Assembly (NCBI RefSeq): GCF_003063665.1
Contig: NZ_NESF01000001.1
Span: 682,001 to 746,000 of the forward strand
DNA: 64,000 nucleotides
Reading direction: 5' to 3'
Source: Limnohabitans sp. Hippo3
GTDB taxonomy: Bacteria > Pseudomonadota > Gammaproteobacteria > Burkholderiales > Burkholderiaceae_C
Shown here: in pieces, positions 1 to 19,796 of the stretch
Numbering within the stretch: position 1 is the stretch's first letter
How the letters are laid out: the number at the start of each line of letters is the position of its first letter
Notes under the pieces: generated by a model
Seen by the model: the letters and a program-made list of their open reading frames with translations, nothing else
Databases searched by the model: none
What the model was told of the DNA's origin: nothing
Translations under genes and position numbers: made by a program

Positions 1-3000
1 ATTCGTGGCTGCAATGCCGCCGTTGGCGTCAACTGCCGTCACCACCAGCGTGTCGGTGCCAGCCTCGCCAAAGACGCGCAGGTCTGCTGCATCGTGGTAA
101 ACCACATCGTCGCCAGCGCCTGCATAAATGATGTCTGCGCCTGTGCCACCATCAATCGTGTCTTTGCCGTCACCAGACTTGATCGCATCTTGACCGGATG
201 TTCCGGTGATGCTGTCATCGATGCTGTCGGAATCAGCATCGTCCTTGATCACGGTCTTGACTGTGATATTTCCGGACAGATTCAGAGTTGAACCACCACT
301 GACGCTCACAACGCCCGATGTTGTCGAGTTGGCGCCATCTATAAAGACAATGTCATCGCTCTCACCACTGATCGACAACGAGGTACCACCGGACAGACTG
401 CGGATAGTCGCATCATCAAGGATAAGGTAGTTAGCGCCACCACTTGTAACACCATTGACTGTGACAACCTGGTTCAGGTTGATGCTCTCCAGGCTGACCA
501 ATGTCGGTTGCAAGGTGCCGCCATCCTGGCGACCTGCCAATTGCAGGTCAATGATCTCGCCCGAAGTCCGCACTTCCAACGTATCGTTACCAGCGCCACC
601 GTCTTGCACCGTGTCTTCACGGCCGTAGACCAAGACATCATCACCGTCACCACCGTACAGCAGGTCTGCACCTGCGCCGCCGTCCAGTGTGTCGTCGCCG
701 GCACCACCATCGATCTTGTCACCGCCCACTGAGCCGGTCAGACTGTCAGCCCCAGATGTGCCTGTGATTTCCTCACCTTTGACGATGCGCAGGCCTGCCA
801 GCAAAGTGACGATGGAGCCGTCAGAAGCAATACCCACATACTTGTTGTAGGTGATGCCCGCGACCAGCTCGGAACCACGTGACTCCCACGCTGTGCCCGC
901 CAGTCGCAGCGAATCGCCAACATTGCCCGTCACAATCAGGGTATCGGTTTCGGTGGAAAGGGCCTGCAAATCATCCGGATTGAGCACCAGCACGTTGTCA
1001 CCAGTACCGCTGAGGTCGATCTTTTCGATGCCTGAAATGACCGAATTGGCAATCACGGTCAAATCCAGTGTCTGGCCCGAGCCGGACAACTTGAGCGTGT
1101 CATTGCCTGCACCACCGGAAATGGAACTGTCGGCAGCGTCGTAGACAAGCACGTCGTCACCGGCGCCGCCGATGAGCGTGTCATTGCCTGCACCACCACT
1201 GATGAAGTCTGCACCGGCGCCACCACTGATGGATTGGTTGCCAGCACCTGAAATCATCTGATCCGCCTGGCTGGTTCCAGTGTAGGTGATGCTGACCGGA
1301 ACACCCGATTGGACACGCACAGTGGCACCATCGAGGGTGAACGTTTGATACGTCACGCTGTTGGCATCTGTGAAGTTGCTGCCCTGCGTCCAATTGCCTT
1401 GCAAGGCCACGGCATCACTGCCATCTCCAAGCACTGAGACGGTCTTGTCTGCATTCAGAGCGGCCACGTCGGCTGCAGCCATGGTCAAGATGGTGTTTGG
1501 AATACCCGCCACGAGATCAATGACCTCGATGTTCTTGAAAACGGCGTCATTGATCGCAGTCAGATCCATGGCAGAGCCAGTAGACTCCAAGGTGTCTATA
1601 CCTGCACCACCATCCACGATGGCATCAGTGGCATCAAACAGGATGGTGTCATCACCGTCACCAGCATCAATCAGATCGCTGCCAGCACCACCATCCACAG
1701 TGTCGTCACCATCTTGCGCACGAATCAGATCATCTCCGGAAGTACCCGCCACACCTGTGTCGTTGCCGTCTGTGTAACCTAAAACCAAATTGCCAGCGGT
1801 GATATCTGCCTTGATATTGAGTGTGTAACTTATCCCACCAATCACGGCGGTATACACGTTGTATCCACTTGTGAGCGTAGGCGTTCCCCAAACACCACTG
1901 CCACCAACCAAGAAAACCGTGTCCCCTGCATCACCGTCAATGGTGAGCGTATTCAAAGTTGGTGCAAGTGCGACCAAACTGCTGGCATCAAGCACCAGGG
2001 TGTTGTCGCCAACAGGCGCGGTGGCCTTGCCGGTGATATCGATCACTTCGATATTGCTGATGCTCTGAGTGGTCGTGGTCAGATCCAAAATCACGCCATC
2101 GGCCGTGCCTGCGAATTTGAGTGTGTCAGAGCCAGCACCGCCATTGATGACAGTGTCATTCGCATCAAAAATGATGGTGTCATTGCCATCACCTGCATCG
2201 ATGCTGTCCACACCGGCACCACCGTCGATGGAGTCGTTGCCCGACAGACCCAAAATCGTGTCATCGCCAGCGCCACCCACCAAGTTGTCTACGCCCAAGG
2301 TCGTTGTGTTGCTGGTTTCGGTGCCTGTGATGATCAGCTTGACCGAAACCTCTGGATCAACCAGAACAGTCACGGGGTTACCCGTTAGCGGATCGGTCAT
2401 TTGCAGCTTGACATACTGCTGCGTGACACCATCACTGTAAATCACGGGTTGTGTACCGACAACCGTCCAATTGCCCGACAGGATGACTGTATCGCCCGCA
2501 TCGCCATGGATCTTGAGTTCATCGCTGGTGTTGGAGAACGCCATGACGTCCGACAAGCCCATTGTGACACTCTGATTGCCGGTAACACCTACCGGATTGG
2601 TCAGATCAAGCGCTTCAAAACCAATGTATTTGCCGTCATTGATGGCCGTAAAGTCCACAGGCGACGACTGAATCGCCAAGGTGTCATTGCCTGCACCACC
2701 ATCCACCGTGGCATCGTTGGCGTCAAACAAGACCCAGTCATCCCCGGCACCCGCATTGATGGTGTCAACCCCAGCGCCACCAATAATTTTGTTGGCTGCA
2801 TCTGAGCCGGTGATGCTGTCGTTGCCCGAACCACCTGTGACGTTCTCGAAATTCGAAATCGTGTCGGTTCCAGAATCTGTCGATGTTGCTGTACCGTTGA
2901 CCAGATTGACCGTCACTCCCGATGTGTCTGTGCTGTAGTCCAGCAGGTCAACGCCCGAGCCACCATCCAGGGTGTCATTGCCGGGTCCGCCGTTGACCGT

Positions 3001-6000
3001 ATCGTTGCCAATGCCGGCATTGATGCTGTCATTGCCTGCGCCCGCCTGGATGCTGTCATCACCGGCTCCGCCATCCACGGTGTCATTACCCTCTCCCGCC
3101 AACACAGTGTCATTGCCTTCACCTGCATTGACCGAGTCGTTGTCTGCACCGCTGTCGATGCTGTCATCGCCTGCACCCGCCAAAATGGTGTCGGCGCCAT
3201 CACCACCCAAGATGCTGTCGTTGCCTGTGCCACCGTCCAGGCTGTCGTTGCCCGTGCCACCAGAAAGCGTGTCGTTGCCGTCACCGCCCAACAAAGTGTC
3301 GTTACCTGCATCACCCACCATGCTGTCGTCGCCAGCACCGCCATCGGCACGATCATCACCGCCCCCAGCGTTGATGGTGTCGTTTCCGCCATTGCCTTCA
3401 AACTGGTCGCCACCCGCACTGCCTTGCAAACTATCGTTGCCTTCAGTGCCTTGAATCAGATAACCCACCGAGACGCCTTGCTGGATCTTGATGGTGGTCG
3501 TCACGCTGTTGGCGGTGAAACTGTAAACGTTGTAGACAATGCCATCGATGGTTTCGGTTTCTGCCGCAGGACTGGTTGGCCAGGAAGCACCCACCAAGCG
3601 AACGGTGTCATCGGATGTGCCGTTGACAATCAAGGTGTTGTTATTGCCCGAGAGCGCGCGCACGTCCGCATCCGACAACTTCAGCAATTGACTGCCTGTG
3701 GCCGACAGGTCCACCACCTCAAAGTTGGTGAAAACATCATCGCGCGTGAGCGTCAAATCCACGACCGAGGTGGAAGAGCGGATCAACAAGGTGTCTGTGC
3801 CGACTCCACCGTCCACTTTGGAATCTGATTCATCAAAGTAAACCTTGTCGTTGCCCTCACCCGCATCAATGCTGTCAGCACCGCCAGCACCATCAATGAT
3901 GTTGTCAGCCGCGCTACCGACAATCGTGTCAGCACCACCGGAAGCCACCACGTTTTCAATGTTCTGCAAGGTGTCGGTGCCTGCGGTCGAACTGCCGAAT
4001 CCTCGGCTGGTACCTGCCGTCACCGTGGTGCTGTTCACGGTGATGTCACTTGCACTCAGGTTGACGACCACCGGCCCTGCAACATCATCAAACAAGACCG
4101 TATCAGAGCCGTCACCGCCATTGAGCGTATCGTTACCCGCACCACCACGGATGGAGTCGTTGCCAGCGCCCGCATTAACAGAGTCGTTGCCGCTGTTGGC
4201 CCAGATTTCATTGTTGCCTGCGTCTCCAACAACGGTGTCGTTGCCCGTTCCGGCATACACATTTTCGATACCCGTCATCGTGTCGGTGACGGTGGTGCCG
4301 AATTTCATATTGCCATCGACCAGACTGATCGTCATGGCACTGGACTCATTGGAGAAATCTGCCAGGTCGGTGCCATCACCGCCCTCCAGCACATCGCTGC
4401 CTGTTCCGCCTTTGAGCGTGTCGTTACCCGTACCACCTTGCAGGGTGTCGTTGCCAGCACCGCCATCCAGGCTGTCCGTTCCTGCGCCCCCCATCAGCAG
4501 GTTGTCGCCCGAGCTGCCGGTCAGTGTGTCGTTACCGCCACCGCCCAAGGCGTTTTCAACATTGAGGAGAGTGTCGGTTCCACCCAGACCATCGGTTGCC
4601 GTGCCTGTATTGAGATTGACATTGACAGGCTGATTGGCAGTATTGGCGGCGTAGCTCACCAGGTCCGCAGTGCCAGCACCACCATCGAGCGTGTCGTTTC
4701 CTGCACCGCCCATCAAGGTGTCGTTACCCGAACCGCCCTCCAGGCGGTTGGCATTGGCATCACCCGTCAAACTGTCATTGCCGGTACCGCCTTTGGCGTT
4801 CTCAATGCTGGAAAGCGTGTCTGTGCCACCCGTGCCGTCAGAGGCCGTACCCGCGCTCAGGTCCAGTGTCACTGTATCGCTGGATGCGGAATAGTCGGCC
4901 GTATCGGTGCCTGCACCACCATTGAGTGTGTCATTGCCAGTGCCGCCAGAGAGGGTGTCGTTGCCATCACCCCCCAAAAGCGAATCATTGCCTGCACCAC
5001 CCAACAAGGTGTCGTTGCCAGCACCACCATCGATGGTGTCGTTGCCAGCACCACCGTCCAGGCGGTTAAATTCAGCATTGCCTGTGATGGCGTCATTGCC
5101 CGAACCGCCGGTCACGTTTTCGATGTTGAGCAGCGTGTCGCTTCCGCCCGTGCCATCGGTTGCTGTGCCTGTATCCAGGTTCACCGTGACGGCACCTGTA
5201 TCCTGGCTGTAGTCGGCCGTGTCGCTCTGTGCGCCACCGTCGAGTGTGTCGTTACCGGCACCACCCCGCAGCACGTCGTTGCCGCCACCGCCTTGCAAGG
5301 TGTCATTGCCCGATTTGCCATCCAGCAAATCCGCTTGACTGGTTCCTTGCAACAGATCATCCAGGTTGAACGGATTGGTATCACCTTCAATCCGCTGGAG
5401 CAACGTGATGGTGTTTTGAATGTAGACCGTGACTTCATCGGGGGCAGTACCCGAAGTGTAGGTTTTGTAGGTGACACCGCCCGTCGTGCTGTCAGCCCCT
5501 TGCGTCCAGGTGCCGACCAGCGTGACGCTGTCGGTATCGTCACCTGTGACGTACAGTGTGTTGACTTCGCCAGACAGATTGAGGACGGACGTGTAATCGA
5601 GTGTCAGAGCTGTCGTGAACGCTGGATCCAGCTGAATCTTCTCGATTCCCGACAGAGTGGGGGTCTCCAAAGTGGAAAGATCCAGTTCAGAGGTGCGTAC
5701 CACCAAGGTGTCAGTGCCGGCACCGCCATCAACTGAAACGTCATTGGCATCAAATATCAGGGTGTCATCACCATCACCCGCTACCAGACTGTCAGCGCCC
5801 ACACCACCATCCAGTGTGTCATTTCCATCGCCGCCGTCGAGCGTATCGGCGCCTTCGCCACCTGACAAACTGTCGTTGTCTGCACCACCAGAGAGGCTGT
5901 CATTGCCAGAACCACCCGACAAGGTGTCAGCACCCGCATCCCCCAGCAAGGTGTCGTTACCGGCGTCGCCCGACAGCTGATCGTTGCCTGTACCACCGTC

Positions 6001-9000
6001 GACGCTGTCATCGCCAGAGCCAGCAAAGACCGTGTCATTGCCCGATCCAGCAGTGACTGTATCGTTTCCACCTCCGGCATTGATGCTGTCGTTACCTTCT
6101 TTCCCGTCAATCACATCAGGGTTATCACCGCCACTGAGGGTATCTGCACCCGTGGTGCCGTTGACTTCAAACACCAGCTGGACATCAGAGTCGACACGCA
6201 GGGTGTACCCATTGAGGATGTAAGTCTTGTAGGTGATATCGCCTTCTGTGACATCATTACCCGCCTCCCAGTTCAGATCCGACAGAATCAGCTTGTCACC
6301 AGCATCACCCCACACATTGAGTTGCTTGTTGCTGTCCACCATGTCTTCGACGTTGTCCGCCGACAGCTTCACGGTGTTGTTGCCGTTGCCTGTCAAATCG
6401 ATCGTCTCGATGTTGATCACCTGACCGGGCGTCAAAGTCGTCAAATCGACGTCACTGCCCTTGATGATCAGGCGATCATTGCCTGCACCGCCGTCCATTA
6501 AAACATCATTGGCGTCAAACACAATGGCGTCGTCACCCGCACCACCCACAACGGTATCTGCATCGGCACCACCATCAAGATAGTCATTACCGTCTTCACC
6601 ATTCAGAGAGTCTGCGCCCGCACCTCCAAGCAAGGAATCGTTGCCAGATCCGCCCATCAAGGTGTCTGCATCTGCTCCGCCATCGAGCGTGTCATCGCCC
6701 TCACCACCGTCCAGCGAATCAGCACCAGCATCTCCTAGCAAGGAATCGTTGCCGACACCGCCCATCAAGGTGTCCGCATCTGCCCCACCATCGAGGGTGT
6801 CATCACCCTCACCACCGTCCAATGAATCCTCACCAGCATCACCCAGCAAGGAATCGTTACCGACACCGCCCATCAAGGTGTCATCGTCCACCCCTCCATC
6901 AAGGGTGTCATCACCCTCACCGCCATCCAGCGAATCAGCGCCAGCATCACCCAGCAAGGAATCGTTGCCGACACCGCCCATCAAGGTGTCATCGTCCACC
7001 CCTCCATCAAGGGTGTCATTACCCTCACCGCCATCCAGCGAATCTGCTCCGCTGCCACCGATCAAAGAGTCCTGCCCCTCACCGCCAATCAACGAGTCAT
7101 TGCCCGCACCGCCATCGAGCGTATCGTCACCCGCAAGCGCTGTGATCAGGTCAGGATTTCCACCGCCTGTGAGACTGTCGTTGCCTGCTGCACCTGACAA
7201 TTTAAAAACCACCTGGACATCAGAGTCGACACGCAGGGTGTACCCATTGAGGGTGTAAGTCTTGTAGGTGATATCGCCTTCTGTGACATCATTACCCGCC
7301 TCCCAGTTCAGATCCGACAGAATCAGCTTGTCACCAGCATCACCCCACACATTGAGTTGCTTGTTGCTGTCCACCATGTCTTCGACATTGTCCGCCGACA
7401 GCTTCACGGTGTTGTTACCGTTGCCTGTCAAATCGATCGTCTCGATGTTGATCACCTGACCGGGCGTCAGTGTCGTCAAATCGACGTCACTGCCCTTGAT
7501 GATCAGGCGGTCGTTGCCTGTACCACCATCGATGGTGTCGTTGGCGTCAAACACAATGGCGTCGTCACCCGCACCTGCCTGCACACTGTCGGCACCCGCT
7601 CCGCCATCGAGCAGATCATTTCCAGTACCGCCACTCAAAGTATCAGCGCCTGCACCGCCACTCAGCGTGTCATTACCCGCACCACCCTCCAAATCATCAG
7701 CCCCAGCACCGCCAACGATGCTGTCGGATTGATCCGTACCGGTCATCTTGAGTTCATCAGTCAGATTGACTGTCTCGGTTGTTGGAGAACCCAAAACGCC
7801 ATTCACCGCTGACTGCAAAGTCAAAGTGAAAGAGCCTGCAGTCTGACGCTCAAAATCAGGATTGATGACAACTTCGATTTCTTTGGTGCGCTCACCAGGA
7901 TTAAAAACAAGTTGGCCCGAGGCAGACTGCACACGCTGAACAGAGGAGACGCCAACAGAGTTGGCACCATTTACCGTCCAGCTGACAGTGACGCTTTGCG
8001 TTGTAGACTCAGAGAGAGTTACCTTAATCAGAGCCTTACCGCTTCTTTCGTCGACTGACGAGGCCGATGGCAAAAGTGAGACCTTTGGAATGACGGGAGG
8101 AACAATCACCGACTCTTGCGTGGGACGAACAGGTGCCGGATCGAAAGGAACGCTGCCCCCACTTTTTTGCCCTGAAACGTCTAAGGGTTGAGTTGTGACA
8201 ACTGGAGGTTGATAGCCCGAAGAAATGGGCGCAGACAGGTTGGAGCCGGATATAGGTCCCGAACCCTTGGTCAAATCAAAACCCGTATTGAGGTTTGAGG
8301 AAATTTGATTAGCAAAGCTAAGAGTCGGCAATTGTCCAGTCGGTTGAGCAATGGGCGTCCCCGAAGAAACCTGCCCCCCGGTATCCGAAACACTCGGTGC
8401 ATTAATTAGTTTGGTGATAGGTGCTGTCTGGTTGCTACCCACAGCGGAACCCGAAGGACTGGCACCCGAAACCACAGAACCAGCAGTCGCCCCAGAAGAC
8501 GGGTTGAAAACCAGTCCTTGGGAAGGAACTGTGATGGGGGTCAGACCGCCATTAGGTGTAACGATTTGAACAGACGATGCAGCACCTGCACCCGTGCCAG
8601 CACCGGGCAAACCGATCACAGTTGTCTCGCCCGTCTGACTGTTGACGTTGACGCCGATACCCTGGCCTCCGGTCTGAACAGCGCCAACAGGTGTAATGAC
8701 TTGCAACCGAACACCGCTGTCCACCAGCCTGTCGAAAACCATCGCACCCGCATCAACCTTGTAAACAGCCACAGGGCCAGCGCCCGCTGTCTGTGCACCC
8801 AAAGTCACTTTGGAACTTTCCCCGACCACACCGGTCCCCGTCACGGTGTTTTGCTGCGACAGCAATTCGATACGGAGTTGCGCACCTGCCGCAGTCAACA
8901 CGGTGTCGCCAGCCAGCAAGCCATCTCCGGGTTTGAGCACGATTTCCTGACCAGCTCGCTGGACCTTAACGTCTCCAGCAGCCTCTGCAACGCGAGCAAT

Positions 9001-9333
9001 GATTTCCGTATTGGCCTCTGCAGGTGCCGCCTGGGTTGCAGGCAACCCGCCTAACTGAGCAGTTTTCACTGCGGCACCGTTCATCAAAGCCTGCATTTGC
9101 TGCGCCAGATCGGGTGGCAGTTGTGTCCATAGATCATCAATATCCAGCAAATTTGCTGGCATGGTCAAAGCCAAACTTTGCCCATCAACCAACAACAGAA
9201 CCAATTGACCGTCTTGCATCTCGAGTGACAAAACGCCGGTCGCTAATGAATTCTCGATGGCCCGAACTAAATGCTTGATCGCAGCGAGCTCTTGATCATT
9301 GGAACGGATCGTGGTGCGGGACTGATTGGCCAT
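1..9333 (-). CDS. Giant RTX repeat adhesin/surface protein, N-terminal part (C-terminus beyond window)
   Basis: An unbroken minus-strand frame runs from the ATG at 9333 off the left edge, at least 3111 codons. The N-terminus has no classical signal peptide, which fits type I secretion through a C-terminal signal that is not in view. Residues about 110-220 look like a FecR-like/retention-type fold ([19 protein letters not shown]). A Ser/Gly/Pro-rich linker follows, then a Calx-beta-like domain at about 410-510. From about residue 530 onward there are blocks of Ca-binding nonapeptides (GGAGNDTLD type), separated by about eight linker domains carrying an L-x-V-x-GDAGD motif. At about 2860-5210 several blocks have the DTLxxIENV signature of RTX adhesins. 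No secretion ABC transporter is in the window. The frame gives sensible protein at every place checked. Function as adhesin or S-layer-like protein is inferred. Confidence 0.93.
6181..6543 (-). repeat. Near-identical 363-bp direct duplication, copy 1
   Basis: This copy nearly matches 7216-7578, with an offset of 1035 bp (345 codons), so the reading frame is kept. It encodes one complete linker domain with the ADNVEDM and GDAGD motifs. Other linkers in the same gene are far more diverged, so this pair is a young duplication. Confidence 0.9.
6631..7062 (-). repeat. Four tandem 108-bp units inside the RTX gene
   Basis: Four near-identical 108-bp units start at 6631, 6739, 6847 and 6955. Each encodes 36 residues, which is four RTX nonapeptides. 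The next unit, from 7063, keeps the nonapeptide frame but diverges. The near-identity at DNA level points to recent unequal exchange or slippage. Confidence 0.9.
7216..7578 (-). repeat. Near-identical 363-bp direct duplication, copy 2
   Basis: Partner of the 6181-6543 copy. Differences are a handful of single-base changes, for example near 7252, plus a small cluster of differences between about 7509 and 7541. The tandem 108-bp array lies between the two copies. Confidence 0.9.
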
Positions 9334-9645: not shown

Positions 9646-10569
9646 ATGAAATCATCTCGAACACACTCAGTGACCACAACCCTGTTGGCCTTCTTGATTG
9701 GCATTTCCAATGTTGGAGCGCAGAACTTACCCTCACAAAACAGCAGCCAGACCCAATCAACTAAATCTCTACCCACGGCGTTTTTTTATCTGAAACCCGT
9801 CGTACTTAACCGCGAACAGCACAAGGGGCTGCGTTTCAAGCCGACGAACTTTGACTTTGCATCCAAAAGTCAAGCTGTGCCTCTGGTGGTACAAGAGTTC
9901 CAGAGTGCTTCTGATGAGTACGCGATTGTGTTCACCAAGGGAACAGACGGGATTTGGCTAGCCTTGGCTGTGACTGGCTTGCAGGCTGAAGTCAATACCT
10001 TTATCGATCCCAAAGGGCTTTGGCTTGCGCGCTACGTGCCCTTCAGCGTGCGTCGATACCCTTTCATTCTGGCTGAAACCGGCAAAGATCAATTCAGCCT
10101 GGCAGCTGATATCTCCGCGTCACACTGGGGAACAGAGGGCGAACGGATTTTTGATGACCAAGGCGTCCCTACTGAATTTACGCGCAAATTGATGCCAAGT
10201 CTGATTGACTTTCAAAACCAAGCCAAGCAAACCAACACTTTTATTCAAAAGCTTGACGAGGCCAAATTACTGACTCAAAAAAACCTGCAAGTGCGCTTGC
10301 ACAACGGTCGTAACGGCGTGATCGAAGGCGTCTGGATCGTGAATGAACCTCAACTGCGAGAACTGCCAGATGACAAAGTTTTAGCTTGGTTCAAGGGTGG
10401 AGAGCTGGCCGCTGTCTATGCCCACATCTTGTCTCTGCGTAATTTAGTGCCCTTGTTAGAACGAAGCCAGGCTCCTGCAACGCCATCTGATACGTCGTTG
10501 CAACGCCCAGCACTCAAGGCCATACCGAATCCGACTGGCAAGCCAAGCAACAAGACAACAAACAAGTGA
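9646..10569 (+). CDS. SapC family protein with predicted signal peptide
   Basis: A 307-residue protein. Residues 1-25 form a signal peptide (hydrophobic LLAFLIGISNVGA core, cleavage near GAQ). The rest matches the SapC family (Pfam PF07277): a VVLNREQHKGLRFKP start, a VPLVVQEF segment, the RRYPFILAE motif and a C-terminal AAVYAHILSLRNL. SapC proteins are known from S-layer and RTX-protein loci, but their biochemical role is not settled. The tail is rich in Pro, Lys and Asn. The gene is divergent from the RTX gene and 89 bp ahead of the autotransporter. No good ribosome binding site is visible before the ATG. Family membership is firm; the link to RTX export or display is inferred from position. 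Confidence 0.85.
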   Translation: MKSSRTHSVTTTLLAFLIGISNVGAQNLPSQNSSQTQSTKSLPTAFFYLKPVVLNREQHKGLRFKPTNFDFASKSQAVPLVVQEFQSASDEYAIVFTKGTDGIWLALAVTGLQAEVNTFIDPKGLWLARYVPFSVRRYPFILAETGKDQFSLAADISASHWGTEGERIFDDQGVPTEFTRKLMPSLIDFQNQAKQTNTFIQKLDEAKLLTQKNLQVRLHNGRNGVIEGVWIVNEPQLRELPDDKVLAWFKGGELAAVYAHILSLRNLVPLLERSQAPATPSDTSLQRPALKAIPNPTGKPSNKTTNK

Positions 10570-10658
10570 AACACCACAACGAATTTGGGACTACTTGGCC
10601 AAATTCAGCACAACGATAGAGCCTCAGGTTCCCCCCACCCTTCAAAGCCCAAAATATC

Positions 10659-13600
10659 ATGAACAAATCATTCACAACAATCTGGTGCCATATTCGACAG
10701 TGCTGCGTCGTGGTTTCGGAGAAAACCCGTAGGCACGGGAAGAAGTCAAGTTGCGTTGCGGCCACAAGGCCTTCAAACACCATGCTTCTGGCAGGTCTGA
10801 TCATGGCTTCGCCAGTTTTTGCGATCGATCTGACAACACCATACGCAGACACAGTCATCACATCCACTGCAAACCCAATCACGCTCGTTCCATCGGCAGG
10901 ACCTAACGGAGTCAGCGGCAACACAGGAAGTTACAGTTGCAACCAGATGAGCTGGGGAGCTGCTTGTGCTGACTTCTACAGCTTTGGCTCCTATAACGTG
11001 TACAACCCCAGCAACGGTAGAAACGCCCCGGGTGGAGGGGCTTACCTGGACTTGGCGGTCACTGCCCCCACTGTTTTGGGTGTCACTGGAACGCCGGCCG
11101 CTTCGGGAACGTATGCCGTTTCAGTCACACAATTGGCCAGCGCGCAAGTGTGGAGCATGAGCAGTACGGATGCAACCAATGCCCCTATTACATCGACCAC
11201 CTATCTCAATGGTGGTAACCCTTTCCAATTGACTATCACCCCAACGGGGGTGGGGGCACCTGTTTCGTTGAATTTCGCAGCCAACACCACACTGGAACAA
11301 GTGCAAGCTGCTATTAATACAGCAGCCACAACACAAGGATCCAGTTTAGCGGGTTATACCGCCAGCATTGGGGATGCCGGGACAAGTAGCGCCCCCAATC
11401 TCGTATTGGGAATCGCGGGCAAATCCGGTGCAGGCAACGATTTCACGCTTGCTACAGACAGTTTAGGTTTGCAGTTTACTCTTCCGTCGCCAATCACATA
11501 CGATGGGGCAACCATAACCCCTCTCGGAGCGACATCTCAAGATGCGATCTACACGATCGGCAGTAACCCCTATACCTCCTCCACAAACACGGCGACATAC
11601 AGCGGTTTGACACTCAATTTTCTGAATACCGGAAGTTCAACGGTCAACATCACATCTTTGAGCAACACCATTGCAAATGGCTCAAATGGCTTGGCTGGGC
11701 AGGACAGCAATGGCATCTCGCCTGTGACCGTGACGACAAATAACATCGCCCTCACGGGCGTACAAACAGCTGTGACACTCTCATCCACAGGCGGTCAAGG
11801 GGGAGCTGCAGGCATTGGCGGTGCGGGTGGACAAGGTGGGTCTGGTGGGGCCGGCTACACAGAGACAATTCCACGTATCAATGTAATTGTCTTCCCTCCA
11901 CTCACAATTCCAGACACGGATGCGGTTGCAAGACAGGGCGGCATTGGTGGCAATGGTGCGCAAGGCGGTACCGGCGGCACGGGTCAAATCGGAGGCGCTG
12001 GTGGCAGTGTCTCACTCACGTTAAGTGCCGAATCCGCTACAGCTGGACGACTTGCATTGATGACTACGACCGGTGGACAAGGTGGCACAGGTGGTCAGGG
12101 CGGGTTTGGAGGCCAAGGTGGCACGGGTGCAGCCGCCGTAGGAGCAATCGAATCCAGCGACATCATGGCTGTGGTTGTTGGTGCGCCAGCCAATTTGGGC
12201 GGTTCGGGCGGCACGGGAGGCAGTGGTGGTATCGGCGGCACAGGTGGATCCGGTGGCATTCTTGTGCTGAACACCTCTGTGGTTAATGCCAACGTCAGCA
12301 CTGGTTATGAACTGAGGGCCATAGGCGGTCAAGGTGGCACAGGTGGCCAAGGTGGCCAAGGTGGTCAAGGTGGCACGGGTGGCGGTGGCATCACTTTTTA
12401 TGGCGACATGCTCGGTAACTACCAAGCCAGTGGTTCAGGTGGCGGCATTGGCGGCAACGGCTACATCGGCGGCATCGGTGGTACTGGAGGTGTTGGCGGT
12501 ACAGTGACTGTCACCAATGTCAATGGTGCCTTGAGCGTGACCGGCACAGGCATCCTCGCGCAAAGTATTGGCGGCAATGGTGGTACTGGTGGTCAAGGCG
12601 GTCAGGGTGGCCAAGGCGGTACAGGGGGGGCCGGTGATGGCAGCTTCATTGTTACGCGTTATTCAGAGGCAACAAGCGGTGGTCTTGGTGGCAACGCCCT
12701 CAACGGGGGCACTGGTGGTTCTGCAGGTGCTGGTGGAAGTGGCGGCACCGTGACAGTTGACAACTCCGTGTTGAATGGCACGGGTTCAATCACCGCAGGA
12801 GTGAACGCCATCCATGCTGCAAGTGTTGGCGGTATTGGCGGTGTAGGAGGCATGGGTGGTACGGGCGGCACTGGTGGCACTGGTGGTGCTGCTGGCTATG
12901 CATCACCTAACGCCGATCTTGTTTACTCAGGCGTTAACGGCACACCCGGAACTGGAGGCAATGGCGGCAGCGGTGGTGCAGGCGGCAACGGTGGCAATGG
13001 CGGTAACGGTGGGTTGGTTACTGTGACCAATACTCAAACTTTGAGGACCATGGGCACCATCTACTCTTCGGCCGTTCTGGCAGAAAGTTTGGGCGCTATT
13101 GGTGGCCAAGGTGGCGATGCAGGTGCTGCAGGTGCTGCAGGTACCGGTGGTGCTGCGGGCTTAAGTACAAGCTCAACAAATAACGTGGTTTCATGTCTGG
13201 GTGGCGCACTCTTGAGTGGTACATGCACGCGCACACTTTCATGGGCACAAGGAGCCAGCGGCAGCAATGGCAGTGCAGGCACTGTATTGGGCTCCGCCAG
13301 CCTCATGGGTGGCAGCGGCGGTGATGTCGACATCAACAACGCTGGTTATATTGCCACCATTGGGACCCGATCAGACGGCATCACTGCATTAAGTATGGGC
13401 GGGGTTTATGGATTGGACTCATTCAACGCCAACAACATTTATTGGCAAGGCCTGCCCGCTGGAGCGCAATCCGGTAGTGGGGGTAACGTGAATGTCAGTA
13501 ACAGTGCGATCACTACAACGAGTGGTAACAATTCAGCATCGATCATGGCACTCAGCATTGGTTCTGGGTATGGATCAGGTGCTGTCACTGCAGCGAACAC

Positions 13601-16190
13601 AGGGACATTGTTCACTTCCGGCAACGATGCGCCTGCCTTGGTGGCAGCCAGTCGCGTTTATGCCGTCAATGGCCTGACAGGAGCGGATGCGGGAAATGTC
13701 ACGGCCAGCAACATCAGCGGCACGATCTTCAGCAGTGGCATGCGCTCAACAGGCGTGATCGCTGAGAGCAGCTCCAGCATAGGTTCAGCTGGTCATGTGA
13801 CTGTAGACAGCACAGGCGGCACCATTTCTGTGTCCGGGTCGGGCGATGCCTCGGCCATTTTTGCACTCAGCAATGCTGGTGGATCAGGCTCGACGGCAGG
13901 CAATGTTTCTGCGATCAACGCCAATGGCACGATTGTCAGCACAACAGCAGGCACACAGGCGGCTGTCGATCTGCGCAGCATTTCAGTCTCAGGGAATGCC
14001 GGCTCGATATTGTTTGATAACAGACACGGCTCTGTGACTTCGGACAACACTGGCACAGCGATTTACCTGTTGAGCAGTGCTGATACCTCGAGTGGTTTAG
14101 CAATGAATTTGCTGATTGGATACGGTAAGTCCGCTTATGGAAATCAGGCTACAAATTACAACATGGCGGTTCTAAATCACAGCACCATCATCTCAACGGC
14201 ACCAGGAAGTACTGCCGTGACTTTGGAAAGCACCGGCTTCACTGACGGCAATATTTATTTGGAAAACGGCGGCTTGATTCAAGGCGGTGCCGGTGGTTCT
14301 GCCATCGCTTTGCTGGGAGGCAATAACAATCTAGTGGTCAATGACAGCAGTCTGGACCCCAATGACAAAGCCATCATCCGCACTGCGGGAACAGTTTTTG
14401 ACACGGTGATCACAGGTACAAGCGGCCATGACGCCATCCAGAACTTGAACGGTGGAACCATCGTCGGCTCAGTTCATCTCGGCAGCGGTAACAACAGCTT
14501 CCTTAACGGCAGCGGCTCAATGTACCTCCCGGGTAACACCATCTATTTAGGTTCAGGTAATCTCTTTTCCAACAGTGGCTATTTATCCCCAGGTGGTCTC
14601 AATACTGTGATGTCGGCGTCCAATGCCAATGGGGTGACTGCGTTGACAGGCAATTTCAGCCAGTCAGCCACTGGTCACCTGGTGATGGATGCGAACTTCT
14701 CTACAGGATCAGTACGTGACGATTACATGGACTTCGTGTCCGTTAGTGGTGCAGCTTCATTGGGCGGCTTTGTCACCATCAACCCCTCAACTGGCGCCGC
14801 CAAACCTGGTAAGTTCAGTTTTCCGATGATGACTTCGGCGGGAGTTATGACAGCGGGTGGCATTTCCGTATTTCCAACTTTTGCCAACGGCAAGCCTTCG
14901 ACCACTGTGGTGTTCCAACCCTCTCTCTCCGTTTACGGCACAAGTGACAGCGACCCCAACACCTTTAACCTGAGCGGTCTCAACACCAGCAGTCCGACGG
15001 TCAACACCCTGTACCTCAATTACAGCGTCGATTACGCGCCATCCTGGCTGGCACCCAATCAGAAGTCATACGCTAACATGGTCAACCAAATACAGACCAG
15101 AGGTGTACCGACCTACCAGCCTATCGCCGCTGAGCTTTTAGGTATCAGTGACCCAACGCTGTACAGACAAGCCATCGACTCCTTAACGGGTGAAGGTACA
15201 ACAGCTGCACAGCAGCTGGCCTTTGACGCGCGCAAGGCATTTGGTCAGAACATAGCCGATGAATCCAGTGTCTTGATCGATTGTTCTACTGGAATTTACG
15301 CCAAGATCGACCAATGCGGTCAAGAGCAACGTTCATGGATCAGCTACAACTACGGATCACGTGACCGTGATGGTGGCTATTCCAACCCCTATGGACACAG
15401 CTACAACTCAGCATCGGTCAAGAACACTGGCGGTGCCGTGGCGATAGGTCAAGAGCGCTTGCTCTCGACAAATCAAGTCTTTGGCTGGGCATTGGGGGTT
15501 GATCTTTCCAAATACAACGTGGCAGATCGGTGGACAAGCGGTTCAGTTGATTCTTTGAACTTTGCGCTTTATGGCATGCAAAAATTTCAAAACAGCCTGT
15601 ACATCAAAGGTATGGTTTTGAGTGGACACACGGAAAACTCCTCAAACCGTATCGCCATGGGACGCAGCATCACTGGCACCAACACTTCAAACTCTCTGGG
15701 TGCACGGGTCGAATTGGGGCTGAAACTTCAGGTGCTAAAACCCGAAGCCGGTTTGCATGAATTTGTGAACGTGACTCCCTTTGTGGCGTACCAACATGAC
15801 CGTCAACGGATGACTGCATACAGCGAATCCGACAATACATGGGGTAATTATTATCCTCAACATCGCAGCTTCAGTTCTGTAACAAGTTTGGGGGTTAAAG
15901 TTGAAGGCAAATATGTTTCCGAAGCGGGAACAAATTTTTCGCCATTCATCAAATACATGTACTCGCATGAGGCTAACGCTGCACGCTCACTGACTGGTTC
16001 ACCATTGTCTGCACGCGACTTTTCCTACTCAGTCGCTGGCTTGCCTGCTGCACAGTACATTTCTAGTATCGATGTAGCGGTTGATGTCGATACGGCCAAA
16101 AATCAAGCTTTACGGATGGGTCTGAGTGCTGCTAGAGGGGACGGAACGTCGGTCAACTCTTTGCAAATCAAATACATGCAACGCTTCTGA
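10659..16190 (+). CDS. Large type V autotransporter with FliD-like module and glycine-rich passenger
   Basis: An 1843-residue protein. The start MNKSFTTIWCHIRQ...VVSEKTRRHGK is an ESPR-type extended signal peptide, followed by a second hydrophobic stretch ending at PVFA. Residues about 140-335 resemble flagellar cap FliD: a GTYAVSVTQLASAQ strand, a TTLEQVQAAIN helix, LVLGIAGKSGAGNDFTL, and later DAIYTIGSNPYTSSTN with GLTLNFLNTGSSTVNI. Residues about 375-850 are long GGQGGTGGQGG-type tracts broken by short beta-strand segments. A beta-helix-like region follows. The last about 275 residues form an autotransporter beta-barrel ending in YMQRF with terminal Phe. A two-Cys segment (DCSTGIYAKIDQC) precedes the barrel. 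The product should be an outer-membrane-anchored surface fibre. Confidence 0.9.
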   Translation: MNKSFTTIWCHIRQCCVVVSEKTRRHGKKSSCVAATRPSNTMLLAGLIMASPVFAIDLTTPYADTVITSTANPITLVPSAGPNGVSGNTGSYSCNQMSWGAACADFYSFGSYNVYNPSNGRNAPGGGAYLDLAVTAPTVLGVTGTPAASGTYAVSVTQLASAQVWSMSSTDATNAPITSTTYLNGGNPFQLTITPTGVGAPVSLNFAANTTLEQVQAAINTAATTQGSSLAGYTASIGDAGTSSAPNLVLGIAGKSGAGNDFTLATDSLGLQFTLPSPITYDGATITPLGATSQDAIYTIGSNPYTSSTNTATYSGLTLNFLNTGSSTVNITSLSNTIANGSNGLAGQDSNGISPVTVTTNNIALTGVQTAVTLSSTGGQGGAAGIGGAGGQGGSGGAGYTETIPRINVIVFPPLTIPDTDAVARQGGIGGNGAQGGTGGTGQIGGAGGSVSLTLSAESATAGRLALMTTTGGQGGTGGQGGFGGQGGTGAAAVGAIESSDIMAVVVGAPANLGGSGGTGGSGGIGGTGGSGGILVLNTSVVNANVSTGYELRAIGGQGGTGGQGGQGGQGGTGGGGITFYGDMLGNYQASGSGGGIGGNGYIGGIGGTGGVGGTVTVTNVNGALSVTGTGILAQSIGGNGGTGGQGGQGGQGGTGGAGDGSFIVTRYSEATSGGLGGNALNGGTGGSAGAGGSGGTVTVDNSVLNGTGSITAGVNAIHAASVGGIGGVGGMGGTGGTGGTGGAAGYASPNADLVYSGVNGTPGTGGNGGSGGAGGNGGNGGNGGLVTVTNTQTLRTMGTIYSSAVLAESLGAIGGQGGDAGAAGAAGTGGAAGLSTSSTNNVVSCLGGALLSGTCTRTLSWAQGASGSNGSAGTVLGSASLMGGSGGDVDINNAGYIATIGTRSDGITALSMGGVYGLDSFNANNIYWQGLPAGAQSGSGGNVNVSNSAITTTSGNNSASIMALSIGSGYGSGAVTAANTGTLFTSGNDAPALVAASRVYAVNGLTGADAGNVTASNISGTIFSSGMRSTGVIAESSSSIGSAGHVTVDSTGGTISVSGSGDASAIFALSNAGGSGSTAGNVSAINANGTIVSTTAGTQAAVDLRSISVSGNAGSILFDNRHGSVTSDNTGTAIYLLSSADTSSGLAMNLLIGYGKSAYGNQATNYNMAVLNHSTIISTAPGSTAVTLESTGFTDGNIYLENGGLIQGGAGGSAIALLGGNNNLVVNDSSLDPNDKAIIRTAGTVFDTVITGTSGHDAIQNLNGGTIVGSVHLGSGNNSFLNGSGSMYLPGNTIYLGSGNLFSNSGYLSPGGLNTVMSASNANGVTALTGNFSQSATGHLVMDANFSTGSVRDDYMDFVSVSGAASLGGFVTINPSTGAAKPGKFSFPMMTSAGVMTAGGISVFPTFANGKPSTTVVFQPSLSVYGTSDSDPNTFNLSGLNTSSPTVNTLYLNYSVDYAPSWLAPNQKSYANMVNQIQTRGVPTYQPIAAELLGISDPTLYRQAIDSLTGEGTTAAQQLAFDARKAFGQNIADESSVLIDCSTGIYAKIDQCGQEQRSWISYNYGSRDRDGGYSNPYGHSYNSASVKNTGGAVAIGQERLLSTNQVFGWALGVDLSKYNVADRWTSGSVDSLNFALYGMQKFQNSLYIKGMVLSGHTENSSNRIAMGRSITGTNTSNSLGARVELGLKLQVLKPEAGLHEFVNVTPFVAYQHDRQRMTAYSESDNTWGNYYPQHRSFSSVTSLGVKVEGKYVSEAGTNFSPFIKYMYSHEANAARSLTGSPLSARDFSYSVAGLPAAQYISSIDVAVDVDTAKNQALRMGLSAARGDGTSVNSLQIKYMQRF

Positions 16191-18308: not shown

Positions 18309-19796
18309 TCAGATGGCCAGCATGCTGGCCACAGCGTTGGCACACAGGGCCATCAAAGCGCCCGGCACGATGCCCAGCGCCAAAACCAGCAAACCATTGA
18401 CCGACAAGACCACACGCACATCGGTGGTGGCCGAGACGGTGGTGGCTGTCACTGGCTCGTCAAAGTACATGACCTTGACCACGCGCAAGTAATAGAAGGC
18501 ACCGATCAGGGACATGATGACCGCAAAGATCGCCAAGCCCATGTAGAAGCCCTGACCCGAGACGATGAGCGACTGCAACACAGACAGCTTGGCATAGAAG
18601 CCGACCATCGGCGGGATGCCCGCCATCGAGAACAGACAGATCGCCATCACGCCCGCGTACAAGGGGCTGCGTTGGTTCAAACCGGCCAGATCGGTGATTT
18701 CTTCGCTCTCAAAACCTTGACGCGCCAGCAACATGATCACGCCGAAAGCCGCCAAAGTGGTGAGCACATAAGACACCGTGTAGAACATGGCCGAGCTGTA
18801 GGCATTGGCTGCCAGAATAGTTTGGCCGTTGATGACCCCAGCCACAAAACCCAACAGCACAAAACCCATCTGCGCAATGGTCGAGTAGGCCAACATGCGC
18901 TTGAGGTTGGTCTGGGCAATGGCGGCCAGGTTACCGACCAGCAAAGAGCCAATGGCCAACAGCGACAACATTTGCTGCCAATCAAATGCCAAAGGCAACA
19001 AGCCTTCGACAAGCAAACGCATCATGATGGCGAATGCGGCCAATTTGGGTGCGCCACCGATCATCAGGGTAATGGCCGTGGGTGCGCCTTGGTAGACGTC
19101 GGGGATCCACATGTGGAAAGGCACCGCACCGATCTTGAAAGCCAGACCGGCCACGATGAACACCAGACCGAACACCAGCACCTGGTGGTTGACCTGACCT
19201 GTGGCAATGGCCTTGAGCACCTCAGACAACTCCAGGCTGCCCGTTGCGCCGTACATCATGGACATGCCGTACAGCAAGAAGCCCGAAGCCATGGCACCCA
19301 GCACAAAGTACTTCATGGCCGCTTCGGTCGCTTGCGTGTGGTCACGGCGCAGGGCCACCAGGGCGTAGCTGGACAGCGTCAGCAGCTCCAGGCCCAGGTA
19401 AATCACGATGAAGTTCTGACCCGAGATCATGAAACTCATGCCCAGCAAGGCAAACAGGCTCAGGCTGAACAGCTCGCCGCCACGCAGCATGTCGCGGTCG
19501 GCTGCATAAGGACGCGAATAAACCAGGGTCACCATGACGGCGATGGTGGCAAAGCACTTGAGCCAGTGGCCCATGGGATCACTGACCACCAGACGGCCAA
19601 AGCCGTACAGCGTCTGCCCGGCATCGGCATACATGGCGTGCAGCCAGGCCACACCGCCCAAAGACAACAAGGTCAGCACATAGGTGGCGGTGCGCTTGGG
19701 GCTTTTCACGAAGAGGTCGACCAGCGCGATCACGCAAGCCATGACCAGCAACACGATCTCGGGGTAAACCGTCATCCAGCTGGAGTTGTCCATCAT
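18309..19796 (-). CDS. nuoN: NADH-quinone oxidoreductase subunit N
   Basis: A 495-residue polytopic inner-membrane protein, one of the three antiporter-like proton-pumping subunits of complex I. The conserved core HFKIGAVPFHMWIPDVYQG-like segment is visible (FKIGAVPFHMWIPD), as is the KRMLAYSTIAQMG helix with its conserved lysine. Length is normal. It is the last canonical nuo gene, 49 bp after nuoM. Confidence 0.97.
   Translation of the reverse strand: MMDNSSWMTVYPEIVLLVMACVIALVDLFVKSPKRTATYVLTLLSLGGVAWLHAMYADAGQTLYGFGRLVVSDPMGHWLKCFATIAVMVTLVYSRPYAADRDMLRGGELFSLSLFALLGMSFMISGQNFIVIYLGLELLTLSSYALVALRRDHTQATEAAMKYFVLGAMASGFLLYGMSMMYGATGSLELSEVLKAIATGQVNHQVLVFGLVFIVAGLAFKIGAVPFHMWIPDVYQGAPTAITLMIGGAPKLAAFAIMMRLLVEGLLPLAFDWQQMLSLLAIGSLLVGNLAAIAQTNLKRMLAYSTIAQMGFVLLGFVAGVINGQTILAANAYSSAMFYTVSYVLTTLAAFGVIMLLARQGFESEEITDLAGLNQRSPLYAGVMAICLFSMAGIPPMVGFYAKLSVLQSLIVSGQGFYMGLAIFAVIMSLIGAFYYLRVVKVMYFDEPVTATTVSATTDVRVVLSVNGLLVLALGIVPGALMALCANAVASMLAI

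Follow-up and report, generated by a model that had tools for sequence, protein, structure and literature searches.

A probable homologue of the FliD head near the N-terminus of a type Va autotransporter in Limnohabitans sp. Hippo3

The passengers of type Va autotransporters translocate C-to-N and do not grow by subunit addition, and the driving force of their secretion is commonly seen in the folding of the passenger's C-terminal side. The functions of type V passengers have been reviewed, and FliD, the flagellar cap protein, does not appear in the main text of that review (PMC6555100). Extra-helical motifs on beta-helical exoproteins are described as evolutionary hotspots for additional binding sites (PMC10284417). 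For FliD (HAP2), the part of interest here is the D2-D3 head, which in P. aeruginosa comprises residues 80-273; in isolation it is reported to be a monomer at pH 8 and, to a minor extent, a dimer at pH 5 (PMC5072837). It can be removed or replaced with functional flagella kept and is regarded as dispensable for capping, though some histidine replacements lowered motility (PMC8533109). An adhesin role has also been reported for the FliD of P. aeruginosa and that of C. difficile, and the recombinant P. thermopropionicum protein binds to methanogen cells; the adhesin role is contested, a direct FliD-mucin interaction not having been shown for P. aeruginosa, and a review of such studies notes the confounding influence of motility and filament growth (PMC4009794). 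The published head experiments all concern flagellar FliDs rather than an autotransporter copy. The locus described here lies in a stretch of 64,000 nucleotides of the Limnohabitans sp. Hippo3 genome, which we call the window. It would add a flagellar domain to the type V passenger repertoire; the titles and opening abstract lines of the literature searched describe no FliD head in an autotransporter.

The autotransporter gene and its neighbourhood

An ESPR-type signal and a C-terminal PF03797 barrel occur in one chain (Table 1), and by these sequence signatures the product is a type Va autotransporter, whose passenger is predicted from its class to lie on the cell surface. The ESPR, PF03797 and TIGR01414 matches all exceed their curated cut-offs; when the whole 1843-aa protein was scanned with Pfam, the ESPR alone did so, the barrel being matched when the C-terminal 443 residues were scanned separately. 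Judged by eye, the signal would be cleaved near residue 55. Glycine makes up 34% of residues 339-900, and the chain ends in MQRF. All six cysteines within residues 57-1560 fall into close pairs (94/103, 846/856 and 1542/1553), the first of which (window 10938-10967) sits just N-terminal to the FliD-like module.

Table 1. Features of the autotransporter locus, with positions in the window
Feature	Position	Strand	Evidence or description
Giant RTX protein gene	1-9333	-	runs off the window edge, 3111 aa inside it; 44 stretches of HemolysinCabind and a single Calx-beta
SapC-family gene	9646..10569	+	PF07277 1.1e-62
Type Va autotransporter gene	10659..16190	+	1843-aa ORF; ESPR and PF03797 barrel
Extended signal peptide region (ESPR), residues 1-47	10659..10799	+	PF13018 1.6e-12, 48.1 bits, cut-off 25
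Probable FliD D2-D3 head homologue, residues ~136-336	~11064..11666	+	PRK08032.1, BLASTP, hhalign, profile with shuffle control
TTLEQVQAAIN, 'IN motif' stretch, residues 210-220	11286..11318	+	PF07196 16.2 bits, E 0.012, cut-off 22.7
Glycine-rich repeats of the passenger, residues roughly 337-900	11667..13358	+	sequence, Gly content
Autotransporter beta-barrel, residues 1578-1820	15390..16118	+	PF03797 1.4e-24, 87.7 bits, cut-off 26; TIGR01414 1.7e-10

The SapC gene ends 89 bases upstream on the same strand and is a possible accessory of the autotransporter. Its best match among 59 other relatives is in a member of the same genus (G014, 56% identity), where, at the locus L061 9090-13468 (minus strand), SapC adjoins a gene for an ShlB/FhaC-type, TpsB-like transporter; its other flank carries, in this order, a bactofilin, another ORF and a giant TpsA-like ORF that has an ESPR and a TPS domain. 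The arrangement suggests that this branch of SapC accompanies type V exoproteins; with two loci it is a lead rather than a rule, and a role of SapC as an accessory of such proteins is likewise a lead. The giant RTX gene is divergent from the SapC-autotransporter pair.

A probable, diverged FliD head in the passenger

The sequence-only reading had picked out five strings as FliD-like. All five occur in the translation of 10659-16190 (+), in the order it gave and within 11070-11700, and that order is indeed the one found in FliD: the motifs GTYxVxVTQLAxAQ, TLxxVxxAIN, LVL..SGxGNxF, DAxxTI and SSTNT..GLTL line up column by column with true FliD heads and keep their order over about 190 residues of the module. 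Aligned end to end with 12 FliD heads, the module is 25-34% identical to them; for comparison, the head of a Rhodocyclaceae FliD (L001) is 28-38% identical to the 12 other heads in its alignment. By eye, nine of the 11 columns invariant in 13 FliD heads are retained, and the I and N of the IN motif do not vary across the 13 rows of the alignment. A glycine invariant in FliD heads is lost at the '(I/V)DG' turn, where the module has GS and FliDs mostly DG. With a pI of 4.05 the module is acidic, and so are four of the five FliD heads for which the pI was computed (4.09-4.54; the fifth, 5.66).

Profile searches point the same way. The NCBIfam FliD model PRK08032.1 matched three differently cut fragments containing the module (E 4.8e-7, 1.4e-6 and 2.6e-7), and PRK07737.1 covers residues 139-336 (E 0.0031-0.014). 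Comparison of the module alone with 13 FliD heads by hhalign, the module not being among them, gave a probability of 97.6% and an E-value of 3.9e-12; three of these 13 heads had been retrieved using the module. With BLASTP, the module matched the Rhodocyclaceae FliD at 33% over 193 columns (E 3e-11). This 447-aa ORF of a metagenome-assembled genome carries FliD_N and FliD_C above cut-off, has a flagellin-like ORF (by eye) upstream, and was the sole relative found by a contig scan with short exact patterns, a method that reaches close relatives only. Against the PDB, the module alone reached no better than E 0.027 (FliD 5h5t). The match to FliD profiles that the sequence-only reading had expected was thus significant with the NCBIfam models and hhalign, while the two Pfam families it had named stayed under their cut-offs: FliD_N (PF02465) scored 15.5 bits against 24.8, over model positions 68-97 of 97 alone, and Flagellin_IN (PF07196) is listed with its score in Table 1. 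The latter had no match anywhere in the genome at E <= 0.001; it scores 32.8 and 31.3 bits in two other FliDs, and is not listed for the FliDs P0003 and L064 nor, in a listing of 25 of 27 matches, for the genome's own FliD (P0002).

The missed Pfam cut-offs could be taken to mean that a beta-rich passenger abounding in Ser, Thr, Gly and Ala resembles FliD by composition, through chance or convergence. Full-length scans are weak as well, the NCBIfam FliD signal falling to E 0.2 on all 1843 residues, probably because of biased composition. In single-sequence searches, moreover, an apparently unrelated family that by eye resembles ABC-transporter binding proteins scored 15-20 bits over the first third of the fragment. 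Since searches of the same kind gave 14.7 bits for the head of the own FliD and 31.7 bits for that of L001, this family scores as high as some FliDs, and single-sequence scores alone are not decisive. We scored the module with a profile of ten FliD heads cut from an alignment, comprising the own FliD (found by NF005955) and nine found by PF02465, none of them retrieved with the module. The module reached 28.9 bits and the full 1843-aa protein 20.5, against at most 5.6 bits for 2000 composition-preserving shuffles of the module and at most 0.2 bits for 22 other windows of the autotransporter. Of 823 pieces taken from the window and from five further loci, the two bearing the module scored 28.1 and 24.6 bits, and the next best 3.4. 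The binding-protein family stayed below 4 bits with the FliD-head profile, so its matches are taken as chance. Together with the hhalign result and the ordered motifs, these controls make resemblance by composition extremely improbable, and residues 136-336 are almost certainly a homologue, strongly diverged, of the FliD D2-D3 head, as far as sequence comparison can tell.

The similarity appears to cover the head and nothing beyond it. No match to FliD_C (PF07195) was found in the full autotransporter or its fragments, compared with 4.6e-45 for the own FliD; a whole FliD, with both end domains, is thus not what the chain contains, FliD_N being only partial. A profile of the module and 12 FliD heads matched 15 distinct sequences of solved structure, every one of them named FliD (HAP2), with a flagellin-FliD construct among them; for the best 11 of the 15, the match spans most of the profile. 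The alignment extends from the strand entering the head to the strands leaving it. By these searches, which did not find the coiled-coil legs, the module would be a complete D2-D3 head, presumably with the D2-D3 fold. The view of the sequence-only reading that a piece of a flagellar cap protein is joined in frame to an outer-membrane autotransporter is borne out by the homology together with the ESPR and the PF03797 barrel, and the piece would amount to the whole D2-D3 head.

Origin of the module and search for further fusions

A separate, intact FliD of 532 aa with FliD_N and FliD_C is encoded in the same genome, its gene adjoining a flgL-like ORF (by eye); the module is therefore not a misread flagellar cap gene. 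A head-profile search found two matches in this genome, fliD and the module, which is an extra copy of the FliD head. With BLASTP, the module matched the own FliD more weakly (34% over 120 columns, E 1e-5) than the Rhodocyclaceae FliD. A first tree grouped the module with the own, L064 and L001 FliDs (93/98), the inner fork holding the module having support of 89/13 and the module's branch a length of 2.64. A later tree, without rows L039, L040 and L020, placed it with the own FliD and L064 (62/13) on a branch of 3.84, compared with a median of 0.34; in clade tests on this tree, the module with the own FliD alone gave p-AU 0.204, and the module with L001 alone 0.364, values that neither establish nor reject either clade.

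The GC3 of the module (0.52) is like that of the other parts of the gene (0.48-0.59), so that composition gives no sign of a seam around it; the own fliD has 0.505. For SapC and autotransporter as a whole (9646-16190), GC3 is about 0.5-0.6, compared with 0.79 in a nuoN-like ORF (by eye; 18309-19796, 0.794), a low value that may point either to acquired DNA or to a base composition that surface genes usually have. No empty site was found: the N-terminus has no alignable counterpart in the nearest relative.

The sequence-only reading had proposed a count of other autotransporters with this domain order; no second fusion of a FliD head to an autotransporter was seen among the matches listed for 1,097 look-ups of the module in overlapping sets of genomes. 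No match to the module was obtained in the 59 other relatives nor, in that search, in 35 other genomes of the genus (completeness 66-100%), and the C-terminal 796 residues of the autotransporter were likewise not found in those 35, among which the gene is an orphan in its genus. One match was obtained in 398 other genomes of the order, inside an ORF resembling an ABC-transporter binding protein (G216, by eye), and two in 397 other genomes of the phylum, both true FliDs. The 239 other genomes of the family gave 35 matches at E <= 0.01, of which 11 were checked (L064 to L072, L077 and L078), including all four that lie in other frames of more than 1000 aa. L064 is a FliD, with 117.8 bits in the head profile; the other ten, which score at most 2.0 bits, are by eye one PurL-like protein and nine copies of the same binding protein, matched at residues 9-86. 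At most seven candidates per genome were scored for the order and for the phylum and at most 12 for the family, and these genome sets overlap. Binding-protein-like loci matching the start of the module are L065-L068, L070-L072, L077, L078 and L008.

A head profile that included the module matched 248 of the 399 genomes of the order, our own among them. No FliD head in a frame longer than 917 aa was seen among the rows listed by this search, which considered at most eight candidates per genome, and 61 other genomes shown with at least two matches gave, on renewed search, listed rows in frames of at most 970 aa; a weak-scoring fusion could be missed in such order-wide profile searches. One genome (G213) has three frames of 682, 690 and 729 aa with three head-profile matches each, as if heads had been repeated or enlarged in these FliD-like proteins. 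The module had no match among plasmids and phages and no relative among viral contigs, the Rhodocyclaceae FliD had no match among viral contigs, and PHROGs returned one sub-significant family of unknown function (E 0.052).

Proposed function and comparison with known systems

With a FliD head standing in frame between signal peptide and glycine-rich passenger, export would proceed via Sec, with the barrel folding in the outer membrane and the C-terminal end of the passenger leading the way out. The head would then emerge last and, following the type Va mechanism, come to lie close to the fibre's distal end, where it would probably bind a ligand or surface, such as mucus, polysaccharide, other cells or abiotic surfaces, and the same binding role is possibly that of FliD at the flagellar tip. 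We consider it likely that the head, given its homology, is a recognition domain, and the reading as a whole, a diverged FliD head on a type Va passenger that acts as a distal ligand- or surface-binding domain and not as a cap, is the one we favour as probable.

The sequence-only reading had instead seen in the module a device that caps the fibre or drives self-assembly of the autotransporter, as FliD does at the flagellum. The domain is the same and probably sits at the distal end, but FliD_C and nearly all of FliD_N were not found, and the passenger of a type Va protein does not grow by subunit addition. FliD heads do contact each other in crystals (PMC5072837); against this, the authors of a cryo-EM structure of the cap propose that the true oligomer cannot do without contacts made by the N-terminal stretch, which lies outside the head (PMC7316729). 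Because the head is reported to be entirely dispensable (PMC8533109) and monomeric when alone at pH 8 (PMC5072837), a role in capping or self-assembly finds little support, and we regard it as highly improbable.

Alternatively, the module could be passive structure, a stable, beta-rich folding unit or spacer at the N-terminus that binds no ligand itself. In its favour, the head is the part of P. aeruginosa FliD that is stable and protected from exchange (PMC5072837), and length and sequence differ strongly among FliD heads. However, the far N-terminus would be an odd place for a folding aid, as type Va secretion is commonly held to depend on folding at the C-terminal side, and we rate this alternative as unlikely. 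The module might also contact flagellin of its own or other cells in the manner of EtpA, which binds flagellin at flagellar tips and whose N-terminal domain suffices for flagellin binding (PMC10284417, PMC6555100), and the genome does encode FliD. The known flagellin-interacting parts of FliD, however, are its legs (PMC5072837), which are absent here, and the EtpA passages of the papers cited make no mention of FliD; such an adaptor function is very unlikely.

A bolder version of the recognition-domain reading, which we consider unlikely, would have the head as a portable 'tip domain': the recognition end of the flagellum moved onto an unrelated, non-motile fibre, so that a sessile cell would go on displaying a flagellar-tip surface when flagella are off. 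It might then serve as an adhesin, or as a mimic engaging partners, receptors or phages able to recognise the flagellar tip. Two of our observations bear on any recognition function. The surface of the module may be wholly changed, because the invariant glycine is lost and the branch is very long; and since a single example was found, conservation of the fusion lends no functional support. The head of FliD is reported to be dispensable for flagellar assembly (PMC8533109), yet the head profile matched 248 of 399 genomes of the order. Carried without the legs on an immobile fibre, such a natural head would make it possible to study head-only binding separately from motility and filament growth.

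Among known systems, the type Vb protein EtpA is likewise a beta-helical type V adhesin linked to the flagellar tip; it differs in binding flagellin, and the passages on it describe no FliD head (PMC6555100, PMC10284417). The nearest glycine-rich, putatively type Va protein found (G049:C65) is a frame of 2960 aa that shares glycine-rich repeats with the window protein and is 32% identical to its residues 1249-1394; it differs in that the first 480 residues of the window protein remain unaligned (best E 1.2), and its pieces score at most 3.4 bits with the FliD-head profile. To FliD (HAP2) itself, the module corresponds from end to end of the head, at the identities given above; it differs from FliD in lacking FliD_C, in keeping only the last third of FliD_N, and in its setting, behind an ESPR and as part of an autotransporter.
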